DNA of 57,202 nucleotides from positions 77,180-134,381 of the forward strand of contig CABXSA010000001.1 in the NCBI GenBank assembly GCA_902514765.1, given 5' to 3'. The notes beneath the pieces were generated by a model. That model saw only the letters and a list, made by a program, of their open reading frames with translations, was not told the DNA's origin and made no database searches. The stretch comes from an uncultured SAR86 cluster bacterium (GTDB lineage Bacteria > Pseudomonadota > Gammaproteobacteria > Magnimaribacterales > AG-339-G14). The stretch's first letter is position 1. Every line of letters begins with the position of its first letter. This document shows positions 42,918 through 54,104 of this stretch, in pieces. Position numbers and translations under genes: made by a program.

Positions 42918-43778
42918 ATGGAAAAAGTTTTCAAAATCTCTGAGGTTGAGAATCTAGCCGCATCTGTATTTGGTAATGAAAAGCATCCTTTAGTTATTTT
43001 TCTTCATGGCGGAGGACAAACTAGATTTGCTTGGGATGATGCTGCCAAGAATATCTCTGCTAATGGATTTTATGTAATTACATATGACCTCAGAGGGCAT
43101 GGCGATAGTTTTTGGTCTGAAGAAGGTAATTACAGTATCAAAGATCACAAAGAAGATTTAGCTTTTTTGCTCAAAACTTTGAATAAACCTGCCAATTTGG
43201 TTGGTGCCTCTCTAGGCGGAATGACCTCTTTATTATTCGTAGGAGACAAAAAATTATCCAAGTTTTGTAAAACTTTGACCATGGTGGACATTGGAGTCTA
43301 TCCAAACCAGGAAGGCTCAGAAAAGATTCTAAACTTTATGGGCTCAGCTAAAAATGGATTTAGTTCTCTAGAAGAGGCTGCTAATCATATTTCTGAGTTT
43401 TTACCTCATCGAAAAAAACCAAAAGACTTGTCTGGACTTCATAAAAATTTAAGAAAAAAAGATGATAATAGATTTTATTGGCACTGGGATCCTAAATTTT
43501 TAGAAGGAAGGAAAGGTAGAAATAACAAAGATTATTTTAAGCCTCTTGAGGAGGCAGCTCGGAATGTAAAACAACCGACCCTTTTGATTAGAGGAGCTCT
43601 CAGTGATGTTCTTACAGACGCAGATAAAGACCTTTTTTTGAATCTAGTAAAACATGCAGAATTTGAAGAGATAAAAAATGCGTTCCATATGGTAGCAGGA
43701 GATAGAAACGATATTTTTCAAGCAGCAGTTTATAAATTTCTAAAAAAACATAATCAACCGTTGTTAAATAATAAATAA
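42918..43778 (+). CDS. Alpha/beta hydrolase
   Basis: VIFLHGGGQTRFAWDD; LVGASLGGMTSLLF; AFHMVAGDRND. Confidence 0.94.
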   Translation: MEKVFKISEVENLAASVFGNEKHPLVIFLHGGGQTRFAWDDAAKNISANGFYVITYDLRGHGDSFWSEEGNYSIKDHKEDLAFLLKTLNKPANLVGASLGGMTSLLFVGDKKLSKFCKTLTMVDIGVYPNQEGSEKILNFMGSAKNGFSSLEEAANHISEFLPHRKKPKDLSGLHKNLRKKDDNRFYWHWDPKFLEGRKGRNNKDYFKPLEEAARNVKQPTLLIRGALSDVLTDADKDLFLNLVKHAEFEEIKNAFHMVAGDRNDIFQAAVYKFLKKHNQPLLNNK

Positions 43779-43799
43779 TTTGATTAGATATTAGGTCGT

Positions 43800-45092
43800 A
43801 TGGGGAAATTCTTTGGGACATTTCTGCTTTTTTTTTGCAGTTCATTCTTTTCTAACTCAGATCCAATTATATGGAGCGGCATTGGATATTTTGTAGATTC
43901 CGGCAAAACCTCATCGATTTATCCTAACTTAACTTCTTTAGAAAAGGACTTAAATTTAGCTAAGCTAATTTCAGATAAGTTTTCCGAAAATGAAAATATT
44001 ATTATTGGAGGTTCTGGTAACAGGTCAAGCGATGAAGGTCTTAATAGCGTTCTTTTAGCCATTACATCAGAAAAGATTTTTTCTAATTACAGGGGGAAAA
44101 ATCCTTTAAATGGAGCTCATTTGTGCTATCGAACTTATTTGCTTAGCTCACAAGTTGTACTTTACTCAATAAACGATAAAAAAATTCTGAAAGCATTTCC
44201 TAGTACAACTAAGAAAACATATATAGATGAGGATGATCAAGGATCATGTAACACATCAGCTGTTGATTTAAATCTTCATAAGGCAAGGTTTTCAGATATT
44301 CTTTGGGGCTTAGATCTTGCAAACATTGAATTAGGATCAGAATTTGTTAAAAACTATTCTTCTTCAAATTTAAGTTCAGAAGGAATGCTACAAGAACAAA
44401 TGGAAAGGATTCTCAAATTGAAAAACGTATTTTCAAAAGGCAACCAGCCTATAGGCGTTAGACAGGTTAGTGTATCGGAATATGCAAACAATCAACTTGT
44501 TGGAAAAGGAGATTTTTCATCACACCAAGATTATTTTTCTAAAGAAAAATTAAATCTCAAAGAATTAAAAGAGTGGCTAGGCGCTGAATTCTCTAAATGG
44601 CTAAGTCAAGATTTAAAAATTTCTATTGTTCCTTTCTACGAAGGAGAAGGCCTGACATTGAATATAGGCACCACGTTTTCTGATTCCGCAGAAGCCTTGA
44701 ATTTAAAAAAACCTGAGCTAAGTTATGGGTTTGACTATGTATTAAGAGGTTACAGGAAGGTTGATGTAGGAGAAACTCAGACACAAAAGGGCAGTGTTTG
44801 GTCTGTTTATTCTGGGATTAAATTTGGAGTAGTATTGGGAGAAGAGCCAGAAGATATTAAAAACCTTGCAACCATTCCTTATACTCAAAGTACCGCAAAA
44901 CAATATAATAAGACGGATATCTTGAATGACTGGGACAATTTTGACGAAACAACTCAAGTTGGCATTAGAGAAGTGAGTCAAAATTTGATTAAACAAAACA
45001 AGAAATGGATGAAAGAAAGCTCAGAAATTTCATCAAAAGAATTTAAAAATTTCGCAAAAACTATTTTAAACAAGGTGGGATATGAAAAATAA
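43800..45092 (+). CDS. Predicted exported protein, first gene of the FlgT/CsgG-like cluster
   Basis: Signal-like MGKFFGTFLLFFCSSFFSNSD; overlaps the next gene by 11 nt; family not identified. Confidence 0.65.
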   Translation: MGKFFGTFLLFFCSSFFSNSDPIIWSGIGYFVDSGKTSSIYPNLTSLEKDLNLAKLISDKFSENENIIIGGSGNRSSDEGLNSVLLAITSEKIFSNYRGKNPLNGAHLCYRTYLLSSQVVLYSINDKKILKAFPSTTKKTYIDEDDQGSCNTSAVDLNLHKARFSDILWGLDLANIELGSEFVKNYSSSNLSSEGMLQEQMERILKLKNVFSKGNQPIGVRQVSVSEYANNQLVGKGDFSSHQDYFSKEKLNLKELKEWLGAEFSKWLSQDLKISIVPFYEGEGLTLNIGTTFSDSAEALNLKKPELSYGFDYVLRGYRKVDVGETQTQKGSVWSVYSGIKFGVVLGEEPEDIKNLATIPYTQSTAKQYNKTDILNDWDNFDETTQVGIREVSQNLIKQNKKWMKESSEISSKEFKNFAKTILNKVGYEK

Positions 45093-46182
45093 AATAAAAA
45101 TACTTTTTATTTCGTTAGGTATGTTGGGCATAGGTTTTTTTCCTTCTTATGCAAGTACGGAAGTTGTAGTAAAGGGAACGGGCTTTAATTCCTTTTCCAA
45201 AGGATGTAGCAAAAATAAACCTCGTGACAAGGGCTTGCATGAAGCTACTATGGAAAAAGCAAAGAAAAAAGCTTGGAAAAGATTTGTCAGTAAACAAGAG
45301 GATGATGTCATCGATGTTTATGATGAAAACGAAGATGAAATCTTAGATAATCTTGATGAATTTATTTTAGATATGTCTGTTCTTAATCAAGAATGCGATA
45401 AATCTAGCAAAACTTATGAGCTTATTGTCAGGTTAACTGTAGACGATAGAGCATTTAAACGTTTTTTAACAAAGGCTACTGGAAATACCTCAAGACAAGG
45501 GGCTCTTGCTGGACAAAGAACATTAATTCTTTTGTATCCAAGGATGGTGGATAGCAGAATTGATGCAAGAAGAGCGGATGTTGATGAAACTAGATCCAGT
45601 TTTGTGGGAGATGAAGTAAGCGATGTTGATGATAGTTCAGCGTCTATCTCCGAAAGGTCGGTTTCTAAAACAGCGAAAATAAAAGGTGGAAGTACAACCG
45701 CTTCTAAAGTGATTTACAAAATGGGAAATAGACAAGATGCACAAGCTTCAGCGACACGAGCGCTTAGAAGATTCAAGATGAGACCAGTTTTTCCTCAAAA
45801 TCTAGTGGCAATCTCTGAAAGAGAAGGTATAGATTCAAGTTTTTTAAATACATTGACGAATGAGTTTATTAAAGAGGGAAATTACTCTTTTGAAAGCCTA
45901 GCCAATTTAGAAACTTTTTCCATGGATATTGGAACATATCAATATATTGTCTTAGGCTCCATAGATCTTAGCGAAGCAAGAGTAGACCAACAATCGGGCC
46001 TACCTAGAGTGACGGCAATAGTAAATATAGAGCTTTATGAAGCAACTATGGACGGAAATTTTGTTTTAGCAACTGCAAACGAATCTTTTAACGCAGTTGC
46101 AGAAACTCAGGAAGAGGCACAATCGGCTGCTTTAAAGAAAGCAGCAAAAACAGCAATTGAAGGTTTATTTACTCAGATCTGA
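45082..46182 (+). CDS. Predicted exported protein with weak FlgT/LPP20-like N-terminal features
   Basis: Signal-like IKILFISLGMLGIGFFPSYAS; EVVVKGTGFNSF...AMEKAKKKAWKRFV-type region (EATMEKAKKKAWKRFVSKQ); C-terminal VAETQEEAQSAALKKAAKTAIEGLF. Confidence 0.65.
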   Translation: MKNKIKILFISLGMLGIGFFPSYASTEVVVKGTGFNSFSKGCSKNKPRDKGLHEATMEKAKKKAWKRFVSKQEDDVIDVYDENEDEILDNLDEFILDMSVLNQECDKSSKTYELIVRLTVDDRAFKRFLTKATGNTSRQGALAGQRTLILLYPRMVDSRIDARRADVDETRSSFVGDEVSDVDDSSASISERSVSKTAKIKGGSTTASKVIYKMGNRQDAQASATRALRRFKMRPVFPQNLVAISEREGIDSSFLNTLTNEFIKEGNYSFESLANLETFSMDIGTYQYIVLGSIDLSEARVDQQSGLPRVTAIVNIELYEATMDGNFVLATANESFNAVAETQEEAQSAALKKAAKTAIEGLFTQI

Positions 46183-46230
46183 TGAGTTAATATAAGTTTT
46201 ATTATTTAAATAATTTTTTAGGAGAAAAAA

Positions 46231-46935
46231 ATGAAAAAAATTATACAAACCCTTGTCATCATGACATTTTTCCTAGCACCATCTCTTGGCCATGCCCAGT
46301 TTGGTGGCCTCGGAGGCCTTAAAGATGCAATGGGGGGCGGTGAATCATCTGGTGGAGGAAATGCATTAGCCCTTCAAGCAGAACTAATTTTAGGAATGAG
46401 TGTTGCTATGAATTCTTTTTTAAAGGCTGACGCAAAATTCATGAGCGCTATAGATCTAGATGCAGATGCGAAAAAACTTCTAAATCTTGTAGAGGAGCCT
46501 TCTGATAATGACAAAAAACTAGAAGCCAAGATTAAAGCGAGTAGAGAGGCAGATAAAAAAATGCAATCTTTCATTGATTCTGGAAAGGAATTAAGCGCTG
46601 AAGGAAAAAAAGATTTAGCTGATGGCTTACTTCCATACGCTATAGGAATGGCTTCAATGGTAAAAATGGCAAAGGTAGCTCCAGAGTTTTTGAAAGCTTC
46701 AGTTGATGAGATTAAGAGCGTGAAGAATCCAATGCAAATTGTCAAAATAAAAAAACAATTTGATTTAGGAGTAAAAACAGGAAAGCAAGTTCCTGATCTC
46801 TTCAAAAAATTAGGAACTTCTTCTAAAAAATTATTTGGCTTTGCGAAAGCAAATAAAATAGATATGAAAAAAGTTGAAAGTGATGCAAAAAAAGCGGGAG
46901 CGGCTGACGGCATACCTAGCATGAGCATGAACTAA
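46231..46935 (+). CDS. Predicted exported helical protein of unknown family
   Basis: Signal-like QTLVIMTFFLAPSLGHAQ, then GGLGGLKDAMGGGESSGGG; predicted helix-rich body; RBS AGGAG. Confidence 0.65.
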   Translation: MKKIIQTLVIMTFFLAPSLGHAQFGGLGGLKDAMGGGESSGGGNALALQAELILGMSVAMNSFLKADAKFMSAIDLDADAKKLLNLVEEPSDNDKKLEAKIKASREADKKMQSFIDSGKELSAEGKKDLADGLLPYAIGMASMVKMAKVAPEFLKASVDEIKSVKNPMQIVKIKKQFDLGVKTGKQVPDLFKKLGTSSKKLFGFAKANKIDMKKVESDAKKAGAADGIPSMSMN

Positions 46936-46942
46936 TTCAAAT

Positions 46943-48217
46943 ATGTTTTTTAGGAAATTTTTATTCATTTCATCTGTTTTTATTTTTGCAGGTTTTGCTT
47001 TCAGTCAGATAGAAACTGTATCAGTAAATGCCAAAGGTTATGGCGATGGACCTGAGTCAGCTTTAAATTCGGCGCTTACTCAGGCTATAGGCCAAGTTAA
47101 TGGGAGATCTATTGATTCTGATACGTTATTAACAACTTCTGAAAAAAGCACTACAAGCAACGACAAATCTGATTATCTCTCAAGTAGAGATTTTAAAGAA
47201 TCTATAAAATCAAAAACCAAAGGGGTAGTTGAGAGTTACTCAATTATTTCTAATGCAAAAGATGATTCGACAGGATTGTGGATGGCAGAAATCACAGCTC
47301 AAATAGCGAGATTCAAAACTTCGAAGTCTGCTAATCGAAAGAGAATTGCGGTCATTGATTTGATAGGCAGGCAAGGTTGTTGCAAAACTGCTGAGGGACA
47401 GTTGAATCCAGATGTTGTTGCATATGAAGTTTCTAGTGCAATTTCAAATTTCCTTGTTCAAAGTAGAAAATTCACAGTTTTGGATAGATCCTTTCAAGGA
47501 TTTGCTGAAGCAGAAAGAGATACCTTGAAGACTTCAGAAAATATGCCAGTTAAAGAATTGGCAAAGCTAGGACAAGAGTTATTTGCAGATATGATTCTTG
47601 TAGGAAACCTTAATTCTATAAGGCTTCAAAAAGCGCAAAGAAAAATGAAAACTTCTGATCGTGTTTTAGAATATTTAGCAGGAAATATTGCTACCAATAT
47701 CAGAATAATCGATACCGCCACAGGTCAAATTAAATTTTCTTCTTCTTTGAGAATGAATCCAAAAGATTTAGACCTGAGTCTTGGAAGTGATATCTTCACA
47801 ATCTCAAAAAAAGTTGGAGAACGCGTAGGATTTGCAGTTCTTAATGCAATTTATCCCATTCAAGTAACAGGCGTAACTGATAAAGTTACAGTTGATCTTA
47901 ATACTGGCGGAGACGTCGTTTCAGTGGGTCAAGTTTTTGATCTAATGTTGTTGGGAGAAAAAATAAAAGATGCTTATACAAAGGAATCTTTAGGTAAAAG
48001 AGAAACCAAAATAGGAACGGTTGAAATAACTCAAGTCTCTCCTAAACAGTCTAGAGGAAAAGCTATCCTAACTGATGAAAAAGTGAATCTTGAATCTAAT
48101 TTCAAACCTAAGATGTATATCTTAAGATTGAACAATTCAAGTAAAAAGCAGGCAGTAAAGAAAAAGACTAAAGAAGTAAGAAAACAAATAGAAAAAGATT
48201 TTGAGGATTTATACTAA
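46943..48217 (+). CDS. FlgT/CsgG-like exported protein
   Basis: Signal-like FLFISSVFIFAGFAFS; VNAKGYGDGPESALNSALTQAIGQVNG (FlgT_N-like); IAVIDLIGRQGCC...FLVQSRKFTVLDRSFQGFAEAERD...ADMILVGNLNSI (CsgG/FlgT_M-like); C-terminal GDVVSVGQVFDLML (FlgT_C-like). Confidence 0.7.
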   Translation: MFFRKFLFISSVFIFAGFAFSQIETVSVNAKGYGDGPESALNSALTQAIGQVNGRSIDSDTLLTTSEKSTTSNDKSDYLSSRDFKESIKSKTKGVVESYSIISNAKDDSTGLWMAEITAQIARFKTSKSANRKRIAVIDLIGRQGCCKTAEGQLNPDVVAYEVSSAISNFLVQSRKFTVLDRSFQGFAEAERDTLKTSENMPVKELAKLGQELFADMILVGNLNSIRLQKAQRKMKTSDRVLEYLAGNIATNIRIIDTATGQIKFSSSLRMNPKDLDLSLGSDIFTISKKVGERVGFAVLNAIYPIQVTGVTDKVTVDLNTGGDVVSVGQVFDLMLLGEKIKDAYTKESLGKRETKIGTVEITQVSPKQSRGKAILTDEKVNLESNFKPKMYILRLNNSSKKQAVKKKTKEVRKQIEKDFEDLY

Positions 48218-48239
48218 AACTAATTTAAAGGATAAGAAT

Positions 48240-49634
48240 ATGAATATTTATAAGTTAAAAATAAGAACTTTATTAATTATAGTTGCTATCTTTTCATCAG
48301 TTGTCATCAATGAAGAAATTGCTGATGATGAATCCGGAGGCTTTACTTTAAAAGTATTGCCTACGCCCGGAGGAGCTTGCGGCGATTATTTAGATAAAAA
48401 AGGATGGCGAGAAGGATTTCAAGTTCTGGGGAATGGAGCTGAGACTTTCTTTGCTATAGGTGAAAGTTCTGTAAAAGCTCCTAAAGGATCAAACGCCAGT
48501 GAGAATATGGCTTATATTGATTCAATTCAAACAGCATATGCAGTAGCAGCGTTATCGGCAAAAAGGAAGTTAGCTGAAGCCTGGAGTTTGAAGGTAAAGT
48601 CAGATATTCAAAATTCTATGATCGAAAGAGTTAAATCTGGCACTCCCCCTAAGGTTTTGCTCGCAGAAAGAGAGGCTGAACAAAAGGATAAGTTAGTAGA
48701 TAACTCCGACGACGGTGAATTATCTATGTTCGAAAAAGCTAAACTTTTGATAAATCAAAAACTTGATTCGATGCTAAGCGATGAGACCAAACAAAAACTA
48801 GAAGATGATAATTTAGCTGATGCTGAAGCTGAGAAAATTTTAGAGGATGAAATTAATAGGATTTCAGACCAAAGTAGTTTTAATCAAACAATTGAATCGG
48901 CCGCTCAAGCAGAAATCAAAGGTATGAAAACTGTGCATACTAATAAGTCAAAAACAGGTGTATGTGTAGTTGCAGGATATTCAGAAAAAACTTCCAAACA
49001 GGCTGACGCTCTTGCTACAGGAAATTTATCAATTATGAAAGGTCTAAAACCTAGTAAGCCTTTCAGCAAACGTATCCCAAACTACAAAACACAAGAAGGA
49101 TTGATGGAATTATTGGGTATGTTCGGAGCCCACATAGCAAGAAATGAAAAAGGTGAAATGGGGATTATCAGTTATGCTCAAGCTGGCTCGCAAAGAAGCG
49201 ACTCAACGTCTCTAGGTTTTGCTTTTAATGTCGCAACTGCAAAAGCTAGAGCTCAAATAGCTCAGTTAAGCAATGAAAACATAGCTGTACAAAATAAATT
49301 ACAACAAATAGAAATTGCTACAGGATTCGCAAATAGTGATCTAAAAGAGTACTACTCTGAAAGAAATTCTGAGGATAGGATGAACGCAAGTTCAAGGCTA
49401 ACAGTTTCAGGTGTATCAGAATGGGGAAGGTGGACGGTAGAAAATCCTGACACAAAAAGCCCCATGGTTGGAGTGATTCTTACTTGGACTCCTTCAGGAG
49501 CTGACTTTGCTAAAAAAAGTAGAGACGCTAGCAAAGAAAGAAGTTCAAATAGCGGATCATCTCAAAGTACTTGGTCCGAGGAATCCGGATATACTTCTGG
49601 AGGTTCCTCTGGAGATGATGAAGAAGACTTTTAG
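48240..49634 (+). CDS. Predicted exported protein (possibly DUF6844-like)
   Basis: Hydrophobic N-terminus IRTLLIIVAIFSSVVI; GACGDYLDKKGWREGFQVLGNGAETFFAIGESSV; ATG 48240 after an AAGGATAAG RBS-like stretch. Confidence 0.65.
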   Translation: MNIYKLKIRTLLIIVAIFSSVVINEEIADDESGGFTLKVLPTPGGACGDYLDKKGWREGFQVLGNGAETFFAIGESSVKAPKGSNASENMAYIDSIQTAYAVAALSAKRKLAEAWSLKVKSDIQNSMIERVKSGTPPKVLLAEREAEQKDKLVDNSDDGELSMFEKAKLLINQKLDSMLSDETKQKLEDDNLADAEAEKILEDEINRISDQSSFNQTIESAAQAEIKGMKTVHTNKSKTGVCVVAGYSEKTSKQADALATGNLSIMKGLKPSKPFSKRIPNYKTQEGLMELLGMFGAHIARNEKGEMGIISYAQAGSQRSDSTSLGFAFNVATAKARAQIAQLSNENIAVQNKLQQIEIATGFANSDLKEYYSERNSEDRMNASSRLTVSGVSEWGRWTVENPDTKSPMVGVILTWTPSGADFAKKSRDASKERSSNSGSSQSTWSEESGYTSGGSSGDDEEDF

Positions 49635-49965
49635 CCTATTTATCTTTTTTCTTGCATCTGTAAATTTAGCAGCTGAATATACTTTTGATTTTGAGTTAAA
49701 AGAAAATTTTCAATTTCCTTATGCTCAGGCAAGAGCGGAAGCAAATAAAATAATCATTGAAAATGCTTATCTAGCCTATGATGATGAATCTGCAAAGACA
49801 AAAGCTTGTTGGAAGAATTATTCTCAAAATAAAAAAATAAAAATTAAAATTACAGACAGTTTTATAGAAAAGTTAGGTACTGGATATGGAGCCTATAGAG
49901 TAAGTTTTGATCCATCCAAAATTGTTTTCCATTCAGATCATTCTAATTACCTTACAAGGTGTTAG
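49615..49965 (+). CDS. Small predicted exported protein, last gene of the cluster
   Basis: Signal-like MMKKTFSLFIFFLASVNLAAEY; overlaps the previous gene by 20 nt; ORF-track start 49507 is too far upstream. Confidence 0.6.
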   Translation: MMKKTFSLFIFFLASVNLAAEYTFDFELKENFQFPYAQARAEANKIIIENAYLAYDDESAKTKACWKNYSQNKKIKIKITDSFIEKLGTGYGAYRVSFDPSKIVFHSDHSNYLTRC

Positions 49966-49983
49966 TTAAATTAAATAATTAAT

Positions 49984-50667
49984 ATGTTGTGGATTAAGAC
50001 TTTCTTTGGGATACTTTTTCAAACCTTATTGTTGGGTGTTTTTTTATACTTGCCTGCTTTTACACTAAATTGGCCAGATGCACTATTGTTTCTTACCATT
50101 CACTTTCTAATAACAATTCTGGCTTCTGCATACTTGCTCATTGTTAAGCCAGCAAGCATAGAAGCTCGAATGAATTACGATTCAGAGACTCAGCCAAAAG
50201 AAGACAGACTGGCAACAGCCTTGATGTTATCTGCAATTGTTGTCGGACTATCTTTGGCGCCGATAGATATTTTTCATTTAAACCTCTCGTTTAATTTTGA
50301 AGGCAATATAAAAAATATTGGCTTGGCTATTTATATCATTGGCATGCTTTTTGTTATGGCCTCAATGAATGCGAATGAGTTTGCGGAAACTACTGTCAAC
50401 ATTCAAGAAGAAAGAGGTCAGAAAGTTATCGATACCGGGATATATTCACTAATTCGACACCCTATGTACACGGGTTTTATCTTTTTTATAGTTGGAGTGA
50501 ATATTTGGCTAGGAACTTACCTTTCCCTTTGTTTAAGTATGATTTTTCTAGCAATAGCTCTAAAGTCGAGAATAGCTGTTGAAGAAAAAACTCTTCTTGA
50601 TGATTTAGAAGGATATGAAGATTATTGTAAAAAAGTTAAAGCAAGACTCATCCCTTATTTATTTTAA
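49984..50667 (+). CDS. Isoprenylcysteine carboxyl methyltransferase-family membrane protein
   Basis: VIDTGIYSLIRHPMYTGFIFFIVGVNIWLG; EEKTLLDDLEGYEDYCKKVKARLIPYLF. Confidence 0.88.
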   Translation: MLWIKTFFGILFQTLLLGVFLYLPAFTLNWPDALLFLTIHFLITILASAYLLIVKPASIEARMNYDSETQPKEDRLATALMLSAIVVGLSLAPIDIFHLNLSFNFEGNIKNIGLAIYIIGMLFVMASMNANEFAETTVNIQEERGQKVIDTGIYSLIRHPMYTGFIFFIVGVNIWLGTYLSLCLSMIFLAIALKSRIAVEEKTLLDDLEGYEDYCKKVKARLIPYLF

Positions 50668-50730
50668 AAAATCGTTTAAATAAACGAGCAAAACAATTAA
50701 GCTTATCATTCTCAATTTTTGGAATAAAAT

Positions 50731-51198
50731 ATGAATTTTTTTATTGAGTACTTTAATAGCATTGTCGGGGCATTGGCAGCAATTGGAGCTGTTGCCTCAA
50801 TTTACTATTTAATACAAGAAATGAGAGAGCAAAATAGAGTAGCAAGAGCAAATGCTAGGCAGAATGTTGCCGACAGTCATCAGGAAATTGCTTTAGAAGG
50901 CATGAAAAAAAGTATGGTTAAGATTAAGTTAAAATTGCGAAATGATGAGGAGCTTACTCCAGAAGAAGACGCCAAATACATGTCATATTTCAGCATAATG
51001 TTAAGATCTAGAGAAAACCAACATTATCAATACACAATTGGAATGATTGATAAAGGCGAATGGGATAATTACAAAAGATCTTTCAAAACGCTTTTTAAAT
51101 CAAAATATCACCTGAAACTTTGGTCTTTCATGAAAAATACATTTAATGATAGCTTCGTTGAAGTTGTCGAGGAACTTATAGAAGATGACAATAATTGA
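50731..51198 (+). CDS. Membrane-anchored protein upstream of EAL gene
   Basis: One N-terminal TM (IVGALAAIGAVASIYYLIQEM) then soluble region; overlaps the EAL ORF by 14 nt. Confidence 0.65.
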   Translation: MNFFIEYFNSIVGALAAIGAVASIYYLIQEMREQNRVARANARQNVADSHQEIALEGMKKSMVKIKLKLRNDEELTPEEDAKYMSYFSIMLRSRENQHYQYTIGMIDKGEWDNYKRSFKTLFKSKYHLKLWSFMKNTFNDSFVEVVEELIEDDNN

Positions 51199-52273
51199 AG
51201 ATCAACAGGCTAAATACCTAATTAAATCTCTGCAACATCACCCGAGCCCATATTTAATTTTTTGTAAAGATGATGGGGTGGAATGGATGAACCAATCTGC
51301 TCAATATGTCTTTGATACAACTGAAATAGCTGATATTGGTATCGCTCCAATAATATCTCATGGCGCGTCAAAGAAAATAGAGGCAATTGGGTCTTCATTT
51401 CAATCTGATATTGAACTTTCTTTAAGGCAAATAAATTTTTTATTGAGATCTAGGGTTCACGAAATTCCCTTAGACAAAGAAGAATCTTTCTTTTTGATAG
51501 AGGTATTGGCTCAGTCCGAGGCAGCTTTGGATGCTTTAAAAAATACCATTTCCTGTCTAGAAAATGGTCGAATAGACATGGCATACCAAAAACAATATGA
51601 CCTGGCTACGGGAGACTTAGTCAGCGTGGAAACACTACTAAGATTAAAGGACGAAAACGGAGACATCATCCCTAATGACAAATTAATACCACTTGTTGAA
51701 GGAGAAAGCTTATTTTCTCTTGTAGTGCTGGCTTCTATGCAGAAGTTAAAGGAGGTCTTTGAATTCAAGAAAAAGAAAAAATTAGATTTCACCGTTTATT
51801 TAAATGTTTCAGCATATACAGCTATGCAAGAAAACTTTTGTAATCTCATTTTAGATTTTGTAAAAGAAAATAATCTTAATCCGGGAGACTTGGGGCTTGA
51901 AATAACTGAAACCGCAGAGCTTGAAGATAGATCAAAAGCAGCAGAGTATTTTGAAAAACTTAAAAAACATGGAATACCTCTCGCGCTGGATGATTTTGGA
52001 GCTGGTTATTCTTCATTAAGCTATTTGCGAGACCTGCCGATTACTTTAGTGAAGCTTGATAAGGATTTTGCTAGAACTGTGTCTGAACAAGATACGCAAG
52101 AGCTTGTGAGATTTGTGGTAACAATTTGCAACAACATGGAACTAGGTATGTTAGCTGAAGGGATTGAAACTGAGGAACAAGAGAAAACATTTCTAGAGCT
52201 CGGTTGTCATAAAGGTCAGGGATATTTTCATCACAGACCCCAGTTTTTAAATGATTTCAAGGAGGAGTTTTAG
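51185..52273 (+). CDS. EAL-domain c-di-GMP phosphodiesterase (N-terminal PAS-like region)
   Basis: VETLLRL (EAL variant), NVSAY, LEITETAE, LDDFGAGYSSLSYLRDL, VKLDKDF, AEGIETEEQ, GCHKGQGYFHHRP. Confidence 0.92.
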   Translation: MTIIEDQQAKYLIKSLQHHPSPYLIFCKDDGVEWMNQSAQYVFDTTEIADIGIAPIISHGASKKIEAIGSSFQSDIELSLRQINFLLRSRVHEIPLDKEESFFLIEVLAQSEAALDALKNTISCLENGRIDMAYQKQYDLATGDLVSVETLLRLKDENGDIIPNDKLIPLVEGESLFSLVVLASMQKLKEVFEFKKKKKLDFTVYLNVSAYTAMQENFCNLILDFVKENNLNPGDLGLEITETAELEDRSKAAEYFEKLKKHGIPLALDDFGAGYSSLSYLRDLPITLVKLDKDFARTVSEQDTQELVRFVVTICNNMELGMLAEGIETEEQEKTFLELGCHKGQGYFHHRPQFLNDFKEEF

Positions 52274-53727
52274 TGACTGTTTCTGAAAAACCCTCTAAAG
52301 GTGCGGAAAAAATATTGCTGGCACAAATTAAACAAGAGTTTGCAGCTCCCGCTGAAGCTATCGAACAATACATTGATTTGGTTGAAGAGTTCGGTGTAAA
52401 AAATAACCTCGATATTAGTTCAGAAATAAACCAAATAAAAGAAGCTGAAGATAAGCTCTTAAGCCAATATGAGGATGCTTTTAGGGAAAATACCGCTGTA
52501 GATAAGCAGTCAAAAACTTCGCAAGAATATTCAGAACTAAGGCATAACCTCCGAACTCCTCTAAACGCAATTATTGGTTATAGCGAGATTCTAATGGAAG
52601 ATTTTGAAGATGATCTATCAGAAGAATGCATCAAAGATCTAAATACTATTTTATCTTTATCAAGAGAGACAGAGACAGCAATAGAAAGATTCGTAGATTT
52701 TATTAAGGGTGATCTAAATGAAAAGGCAGCAGAGGATTCTGAGCAAGGACAGATCCAAAATGCCGAATCACTTTTTAGATCATTAGGTGACATTGACTAT
52801 AGCTTAGACATAGATGATTACCTCAAAGGATCAGATGTTCTTATAGTTGACGATAATAAAACTAATTGCGAGGTTTTAGAGAGAAGACTTACCCAGAATG
52901 GTCTCTCATGTAGGGTTGCACTAGATGGTACTTCAGCAATAGAAGAGGTAGATAAGAAAACTCCTGACCTAATTTTATTAGATGTTATGTTACCCGACAT
53001 AAATGGCTTAGAGCTTTTAAAAAGATTTAGAGAGAATCATGATAGAGATGAAATGCCAATTATTATGGTTTCTGCATTTAATGATGTTGATAGCACTGCT
53101 AAATGCATCAAATTAGGCGCCTCGGATTATCTTCCAAAGCCTTTGAATGGGACTATATTGATGGCTAAGTCCATTGCTAGCCTAGAGGCAAAATATTTTA
53201 GAGCGAGAGAACAAGAGTTATTAAAAGAATTAAATCTTAAAGCTACAACTTGCCCTCTAACTGGAATTTTTAATAGACAAGTTGTTTTTGACAAGATTGA
53301 GGAATGTTTTGAGAAACTAAATCAAGATAAAAGCTACGAATTTTCTTTACTTTCTATTGATATAGACTTTTTTAAGTCAATCAATGATACATATGGGCAT
53401 CCGGGAGGTGATGAAGTACTAAAAGCAGTTGCTAATAGTTTAAAAGATGCATGTGGTGAAAATGTTATTGGTAGAGTAGGTGGAGAGGAATTTATTGCAG
53501 TTTTAGAACATAAAGAAGAAATGAGCTTAAAACACTACTGCGAGTCAATAAGAAAAGCTGTAGTAGATTTATCAATACCCTTTCAAGATATTAAAATTAA
53601 TATTACTATAAGTGGAGGAGTTATTAATTCATCCGAAGTTAAGGATCAAGAAGAACTTGTTAATCTTGCGGATGAGAGGCTCTACAAAGCAAAAGAAGGG
53701 GGAAGAAATCAGTTTGTTTATAGCTGA
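52273..53727 (+). CDS. HisKA (DHp)-only / REC / GGDEF diguanylate cyclase
   Basis: ELRHNLRTPLNAIIGYSEIL H-box; no N/G boxes; LIVDDNKTN...LILLDVMLPD REC; LTGIFNRQ...GRVGGEEF GGDEF. Confidence 0.93.
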   Translation: MTVSEKPSKGAEKILLAQIKQEFAAPAEAIEQYIDLVEEFGVKNNLDISSEINQIKEAEDKLLSQYEDAFRENTAVDKQSKTSQEYSELRHNLRTPLNAIIGYSEILMEDFEDDLSEECIKDLNTILSLSRETETAIERFVDFIKGDLNEKAAEDSEQGQIQNAESLFRSLGDIDYSLDIDDYLKGSDVLIVDDNKTNCEVLERRLTQNGLSCRVALDGTSAIEEVDKKTPDLILLDVMLPDINGLELLKRFRENHDRDEMPIIMVSAFNDVDSTAKCIKLGASDYLPKPLNGTILMAKSIASLEAKYFRAREQELLKELNLKATTCPLTGIFNRQVVFDKIEECFEKLNQDKSYEFSLLSIDIDFFKSINDTYGHPGGDEVLKAVANSLKDACGENVIGRVGGEEFIAVLEHKEEMSLKHYCESIRKAVVDLSIPFQDIKINITISGGVINSSEVKDQEELVNLADERLYKAKEGGRNQFVYS

Positions 53728-53738
53728 AGGAGAGAGTT

Positions 53739-54104
53739 ATGAAGAAGATTCTTTATGTTGAAGACAATGAAATGAATCGTGATATGTTAGGTCGAAGACT
53801 CACCAGAAGAGAATTCGAGGTAGTTTTTGCCTTTGATGGCCAAGAAGGTTTAGAGAAGATGAAATCTGAAAATCCAGATTTAGTTTTAATGGATATGGGT
53901 CTTCCTGTTTTGGATGGCTGGGAAGCAACTACAAAAGCTAAAGCCGATCCTGAAATCTCAAATATTCCTATTATTGCCTTAACTGCTCATGCAATGGAGC
54001 ATGATAGGCAAAAGGCTTTGGAATGTGGCGCGGATGATTTCGATACCAAGCCTGTTGATTTTAAGAGACTGTTAGAAAAAATTGAGTCAAATTTAGGCGC
54101 TTAG
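53739..54104 (+). CDS. Stand-alone response regulator receiver (CheY/DivK-like)
   Basis: ILYVEDNEMNRDMLGRRL; LVLMDMGLPVLDGWEATTKAK; PIIALTAHAM; DTKPVD. Confidence 0.95.
   Translation: MKKILYVEDNEMNRDMLGRRLTRREFEVVFAFDGQEGLEKMKSENPDLVLMDMGLPVLDGWEATTKAKADPEISNIPIIALTAHAMEHDRQKALECGADDFDTKPVDFKRLLEKIESNLGA

Follow-up and report, generated by a model that had tools for sequence, protein, structure and literature searches.

A cassette of six genes for exported-type proteins (p1 to p6) in a SAR86 genome may encode a periplasmic or outer-membrane scaffold in which FlgT/CsgG/PelC-type modules are employed independently of flagella and curli, and this is the explanation that we tentatively favor. 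With a little more reserve, we consider it possible that p1–p5 constitute a so far undescribed machine of the cell envelope, in the form of a FlgT/CsgG/PelC-type collar without flagella or curli, which occurs as an optional cassette in the marine lineage SAR86 and in operons on chromosomes or megaplasmids of other proteobacteria. The analyzed stretch of DNA (the window) comprised 57.2 kb (G000:C1:77180-134381) of a metagenome-derived genome of 0.9 Mb that is about 68% complete.

The first-pass annotation had described six consecutive plus-strand genes for exported proteins with two overlaps. The open reading frames, their order, and the overlaps at 45082–45092 (p1/p2) and 49615–49634 (p5/p6) turned out to be real. 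The gene p1 (43800–45092) codes for an exported protein of 430 aa without known domain and overlaps by 11 bp with p2 (45082–46182), whose exported product of 366 aa probably consists of an SHS2-like (Lpp20/FlgT_N-like) N-domain and a PelC/CsgG-like C-domain, both weakly assigned. The exported p3 protein (46231–46935; 234 aa) has a Gly-rich start. The FlgT-type protein p4 (46943–48217; 424 aa) comprises an N-domain (about residues 22–123), a CsgG-like middle domain (about 127–294), and an SH3-like C-domain (about 302–396). It is followed by p5 (48240–49634; 464 aa), an exported homolog of PDB 4QVR, and by the exported p6 protein (49615–49965; 116 aa), which overlaps by 20 bp with p5. For p5, the ATG at 48240, which is preceded by an AGGA-type sequence, is a likelier start than the TTG at 48201, where the list of open reading frames begins this gene. 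An open frame of 184 aa runs antisense across p3 (46374–46928, minus strand) and probably results from the codon use of p3.

When signal peptides were called by a simple hydrophobicity/AxA rule, p1–p5 passed and showed no later membrane helix; 4 of the 49 other genes of the window passed as well. The p6 protein missed the rule solely at the strict −3 residue (LAA/E) and is signal-like by eye. Exactly two cysteines were present in each mature cassette protein except for p3, which has none, and two cysteines per protein would fit an oxidizing periplasm. Among the four SAR86 genomes with the cassette, protein identity was 87–92% for p2 and 89–91% for p4, while cassette DNA of the carriers was about 77–87% identical to the window. 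The higher identity at the protein level makes it certain that p2 and p4 are coding and implies purifying selection on both.

The complete cassette, with p1–p6 in the same order, was found in the window, in L009 (genome G003), in L010, and in L011 (genome G014). In eight further genomes of the genus (G004, G005, G006, G009, G010, G011, G012, and G013) the site was empty and the hydrolase and methyltransferase genes were located side by side with a spacer of about 20–50 bp. Judged by comparison with these empty sites, the optional cassette as a whole, with the junction spacers at its two ends, spans 43779–49983, between the hydrolase gene (42918–43778) upstream and the methyltransferase gene (49984–50667) downstream. 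Its GC content was 35.05% compared to 35.3% in the surroundings, and none of its six genes was transposase- or integrase-like. On these grounds a mobile element was rejected, and the cassette appears to be optional yet well settled. Pairwise identity shifted along the cassette: p1 and p3 grouped the window with L009, while p5–p6 grouped it with L011, a pattern suggestive of recombination among two or more sets of alleles. The c-di-GMP genes further downstream (51185–54104) do not belong to the cassette, since they were also present in members of the genus lacking it.

Some further observations were made at these loci. A second variable site lies just downstream (50667–50731 in the window; L009 13678–17783, L044 9069–14277, L045 8922–14130), where, in other SAR86 genomes, the methyltransferase gene and a gene for a 155-aa protein are separated by 4–5 kb with glycosyltransferase and dTDP-sugar-type genes. 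The L010 contig (PCCQ01000063.1, 1–8467) is filed as Candidatus Neomarinimicrobiota and is probably misbinned; it shows the SAR86 gene order, with flanking proteins up to 98.6% identical to those of the window. In L009 (5900–7022), frame changes appear to interrupt the hydrolase gene and the beginning of p1, with matches in several frames, which may be due to sequencing error. Two tandem genes for exported CsgG-like proteins of about 305 aa were seen in L041 (9957–11788; G009) and at the matching place in L042 (G005), adjoining a DNA cytosine methyltransferase-like gene. Their C-terminal part resembles that of p4, and they possibly represent a related smaller system; both genomes lack the cassette.

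A FlgT-type layout had been proposed for p4, with a CsgG-like middle domain. The Pfam CsgG model matched p4 above its cut-off (5.6e-8; 32.8 bits versus 20.8), and the p4 profile also matched CsgG chains weakly. Comparison of the p4 profile with an alignment of four FlgT proteins gave a match of 99% (E=2.1e-18) over 344 columns spanning all three domains, and the same four-protein alignment retrieves the solved structures of FlgT (1e-36 to 1e-44). With the SAR86 p4 sequences alone, the match to FlgT was weak (E=0.0037), so the homology rests on intermediates. The three FlgT Pfam models did not match p4 of the window; one p4 relative matched FlgT_M at 1.8e-10 and another FlgT_C at 0.008. The profile of the C-domain resembled TsaP. 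From these profile matches we concluded that p4 is a full-length three-domain relative of FlgT, and both proposals held.

Evidence for p2 was less clear. FlgT, FlgP, and Lpp20 have a fold in common that is associated with ring structures at the outer membrane (PMC12222027), and PelC is described as forming a periplasmic ring of twelve (PMC12141448). Comparison of p2 with the FlgT N-domain resulted in E=0.0036, and the p2 sequence gave nothing convincing against the PDB. The AlphaFold model of p2 is of low confidence (mean pLDDT 46), so its fold matches are hints; in Foldseek, PelC was the best match (E=2e-4) and Tip-alpha was also found, which would fit the C-domain and the N-domain, respectively. 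The FlgT/Lpp20-like features noted earlier for p2 are thus weakly supported. The AlphaFold model of p1 was unusable (pLDDT 31). Comparisons gave no support for p1 as a FlgT or CsgG paralog, and this was rejected.

The fifth gene had been said to resemble DUF6844. A profile of SAR86 p5 sequences only matched a DUF6844-only profile with 98.9% (E=1.8e-17), and a p5 search matched G251 at 1e-14. The Pfam model PF20891 (DUF6844) did not match p5, and a PF20891 search likewise left G000 unmatched. We assign p5 to the DUF6844 family by profile homology, though it falls below the Pfam model. The p5 profile also matched PDB 4QVR, a solved structure labelled uncharacterized, with a very low E-value that may owe much to the close relatives from G240 and G338 within the profile. 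A study on outer-membrane vesicles lists the Francisella protein of this structure among the immunoreactive proteins (PMC10963506). The literature searched, which covered sources outside subscription, contained no mention of DUF6844 that we could find.

At nine loci a p4 homolog followed a DUF6844 gene on the same strand, immediately in eight of them and after p2 in G362. Since p4 relatives occurred without p1–p3 in some genomes, two or more different systems may exist. This kind of system is not wholly new: the structure of a p5 homolog has already been solved (4QVR), and p5-p4 pairs were seen in several families, in some cases beside LpoB- and YcfL-type genes. Near the p5-p4 pair of Azospirillum (L060 11032–17044), a very large gene of about 20 kb, annotated as an Ig-like domain protein, is located on the opposite strand.

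Relatives outside SAR86 were found by a p4 search and then by profile searches. A co-oriented p1-p2-p3-p4 operon was present in six proteobacterial genomes (the Cupriavidus CH34 megaplasmid, G542, G585, G321, G628, and G720). The gene order was p4-x-y-p1-p2-p3 in Caballeronia and p5-p2-p4-p3-p1 in G362, where p3 was the weakest match. An overlap of p1 and p2 by 10–11 bp was seen in SAR86, Cupriavidus, Caballeronia, and further genomes with both starts readable. To limit circularity, we compared alignments of SAR86 sequences only with alignments of outside sequences only by profile. This resulted in matches of 96% (E=1e-9) for p1, 99% (E=4e-18) for p2, and 98.7% (E=1.5e-16) for p3, and comparisons across different cassette families gave nothing convincing. 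Co-conservation of the six genes, as expected from the first-pass annotation, was thus observed for all six in four SAR86 genomes and for p1–p4 or p1–p5 as clusters in distant bacteria. Judged from sequence comparison, p1–p5 is a conserved module outside SAR86 and p6 is known from SAR86 only.

The distribution was sporadic, with five strong p2 matches besides the window among 398 genomes of the phylum; of 370 genomes of the class, 8 carried DUF6844. No relative of p6 was found outside SAR86; the Caballeronia gene adjoining the cluster did not match p6, and the neighbor of that gene did not match p5. Absence in our searches means absence at the sensitivity used, and the host genome is incomplete. 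A phage or plasmid origin was rejected: p5 had no match in PLSDB, relatives of p2, p4, or p5 were not found in IMG/VR with the patterns used, and the four plasmid records matched by p4 were all large replicons.

In the scaffold that we favor, p4 and p2 would oligomerize into one or more collars beneath the outer membrane. The lipobox found in p4 of several relatives suggests that p4 would dock at the outer membrane. With mature charges of −12 and +12, respectively, p5 may be the partner of p4. The proteins p1 and p3 would complete the complex or be carried by it, and we regard p3 as the most plausible candidate for a cargo or filling subunit. A likely job of such an assembly would be to support a surface structure or an export path, or to act as its gate; neither a beta-barrel nor a secreted substrate was evident in the cassette.

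CsgG/LpoB-type domains are also found in proteins acting without rings. Accordingly, the CsgG/LpoB-like domains of the cassette could act as LpoB does, crossing the cell wall in order to control peptidoglycan synthesis or the integrity of the outer membrane, and neither a ring nor export would be involved. We consider such a role in envelope maintenance unlikely, even if some observations point to it. The Pfam LpoB model was passed by p4 (5.8e-6), the p5-p4 pair of Azospirillum comes after genes annotated as YcfL and LpoB, and in G106, G240, G338, and G792 a short lipoprotein with a weak match to the p4 profile precedes p5. However, p4 remained far under the cut-off of the LpoB equivalog TIGR02722 (21.7 versus 110.55 bits), its full-length homology to FlgT was stronger than the LpoB match, and p1–p3 showed no link to LpoB.

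A curli-like secretion system, with an outer-membrane portal of p4 and p2 through which p3 or p6 would leave the cell, appears more doubtful still. It would account for the CsgG domain of p4 and for the small, Gly-rich, exported p3, which always adjoins p2/p4 in the p1–p4 operon. However, CsgF was found in 0 of 13 genomes, and p6 as a substrate would be restricted to SAR86. Furthermore, residues 219–240 of p4, the counterpart of the first CsgG membrane hairpin, were strongly basic (LVGNLNSIRLQKAQRKMKTSDR) and, upon inspection of the sequence, appeared unlike a membrane strand.

The complex had been proposed to have no flagellar role, given a window without flagellar or curli genes, and nothing pointed to a full flagellum of the host with this cassette as its H-ring locus. 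FlgI was not found in the cassette carriers G000 (about 68% complete), G003, and G014, nor in SAR86 genome G009, and it was also not found in G240 and G338. Seven carriers of related genes have FlgI, elsewhere in the genome where it could be placed, and no flagellar genes were seen beside p4 in the loci inspected. That p4 is a FlgT left from a lost flagellum, with unrelated neighbors, is largely refuted and highly improbable despite its full-length FlgT homology, because p4 is retained together with its partners, and under strong purifying selection, in SAR86 genomes without detectable FlgI, the same partners recur beside p4 in distant genomes, and the cluster of flagellated carriers lies on another contig than FlgI or more than 1 Mb away (G585).

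A FlgT-type protein with stable partners where no flagellar P-ring gene was found bears on the origin of flagellar ring accessories. If p1–p5 indeed form a collar, ring modules would make up a larger family, of which the flagellar H-ring protein represents a single branch. Five poorly characterized protein families gain a shared context, which is tied to a solved but unexplained structure (4QVR). While SAR86 is hard to culture, Cupriavidus metallidurans CH34 is a tractable species for studying the system.

Among known systems, p4 corresponds over its full length to FlgT, which belongs to the H-ring of Vibrio-type flagellar motors (PDB 3W1E, 8Z5N); the three domains and their order agree. In contrast to FlgT, p4 of the window stays under the FlgT Pfam models and has different partners, and no P-ring gene was detected in SAR86. 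The curli export pore CsgG (PDB 4UV3) is similar to the middle domain of p4 (Pfam CsgG), whereas p4 has additional N- and C-domains, a basic stretch at the place expected for the first membrane hairpin, and no CsgF. The dodecameric lipoprotein ring PelC (PDB 5T0Z) was the top Foldseek match of the low-confidence p2 model; unlike PelC, p2 carries an additional N-domain and is devoid of a lipobox, and the cassette lacks pel genes. The DUF6844 protein FTT_1539c (PDB 4QVR) is homologous to p5 by profile, and DUF6844 genes usually adjoin a p4 homolog, but p5 of SAR86 stays under the Pfam cut-off and is accompanied by p1–p3, which most DUF6844 loci lack. In the megaplasmid operon of C. metallidurans CH34, p5 and p6 were not found, protein identity was 20–25%, and p4 carries a lipobox-like motif, whereas the four families, their order, their strand, and the p1/p2 overlap were the same as in SAR86 p1–p4.
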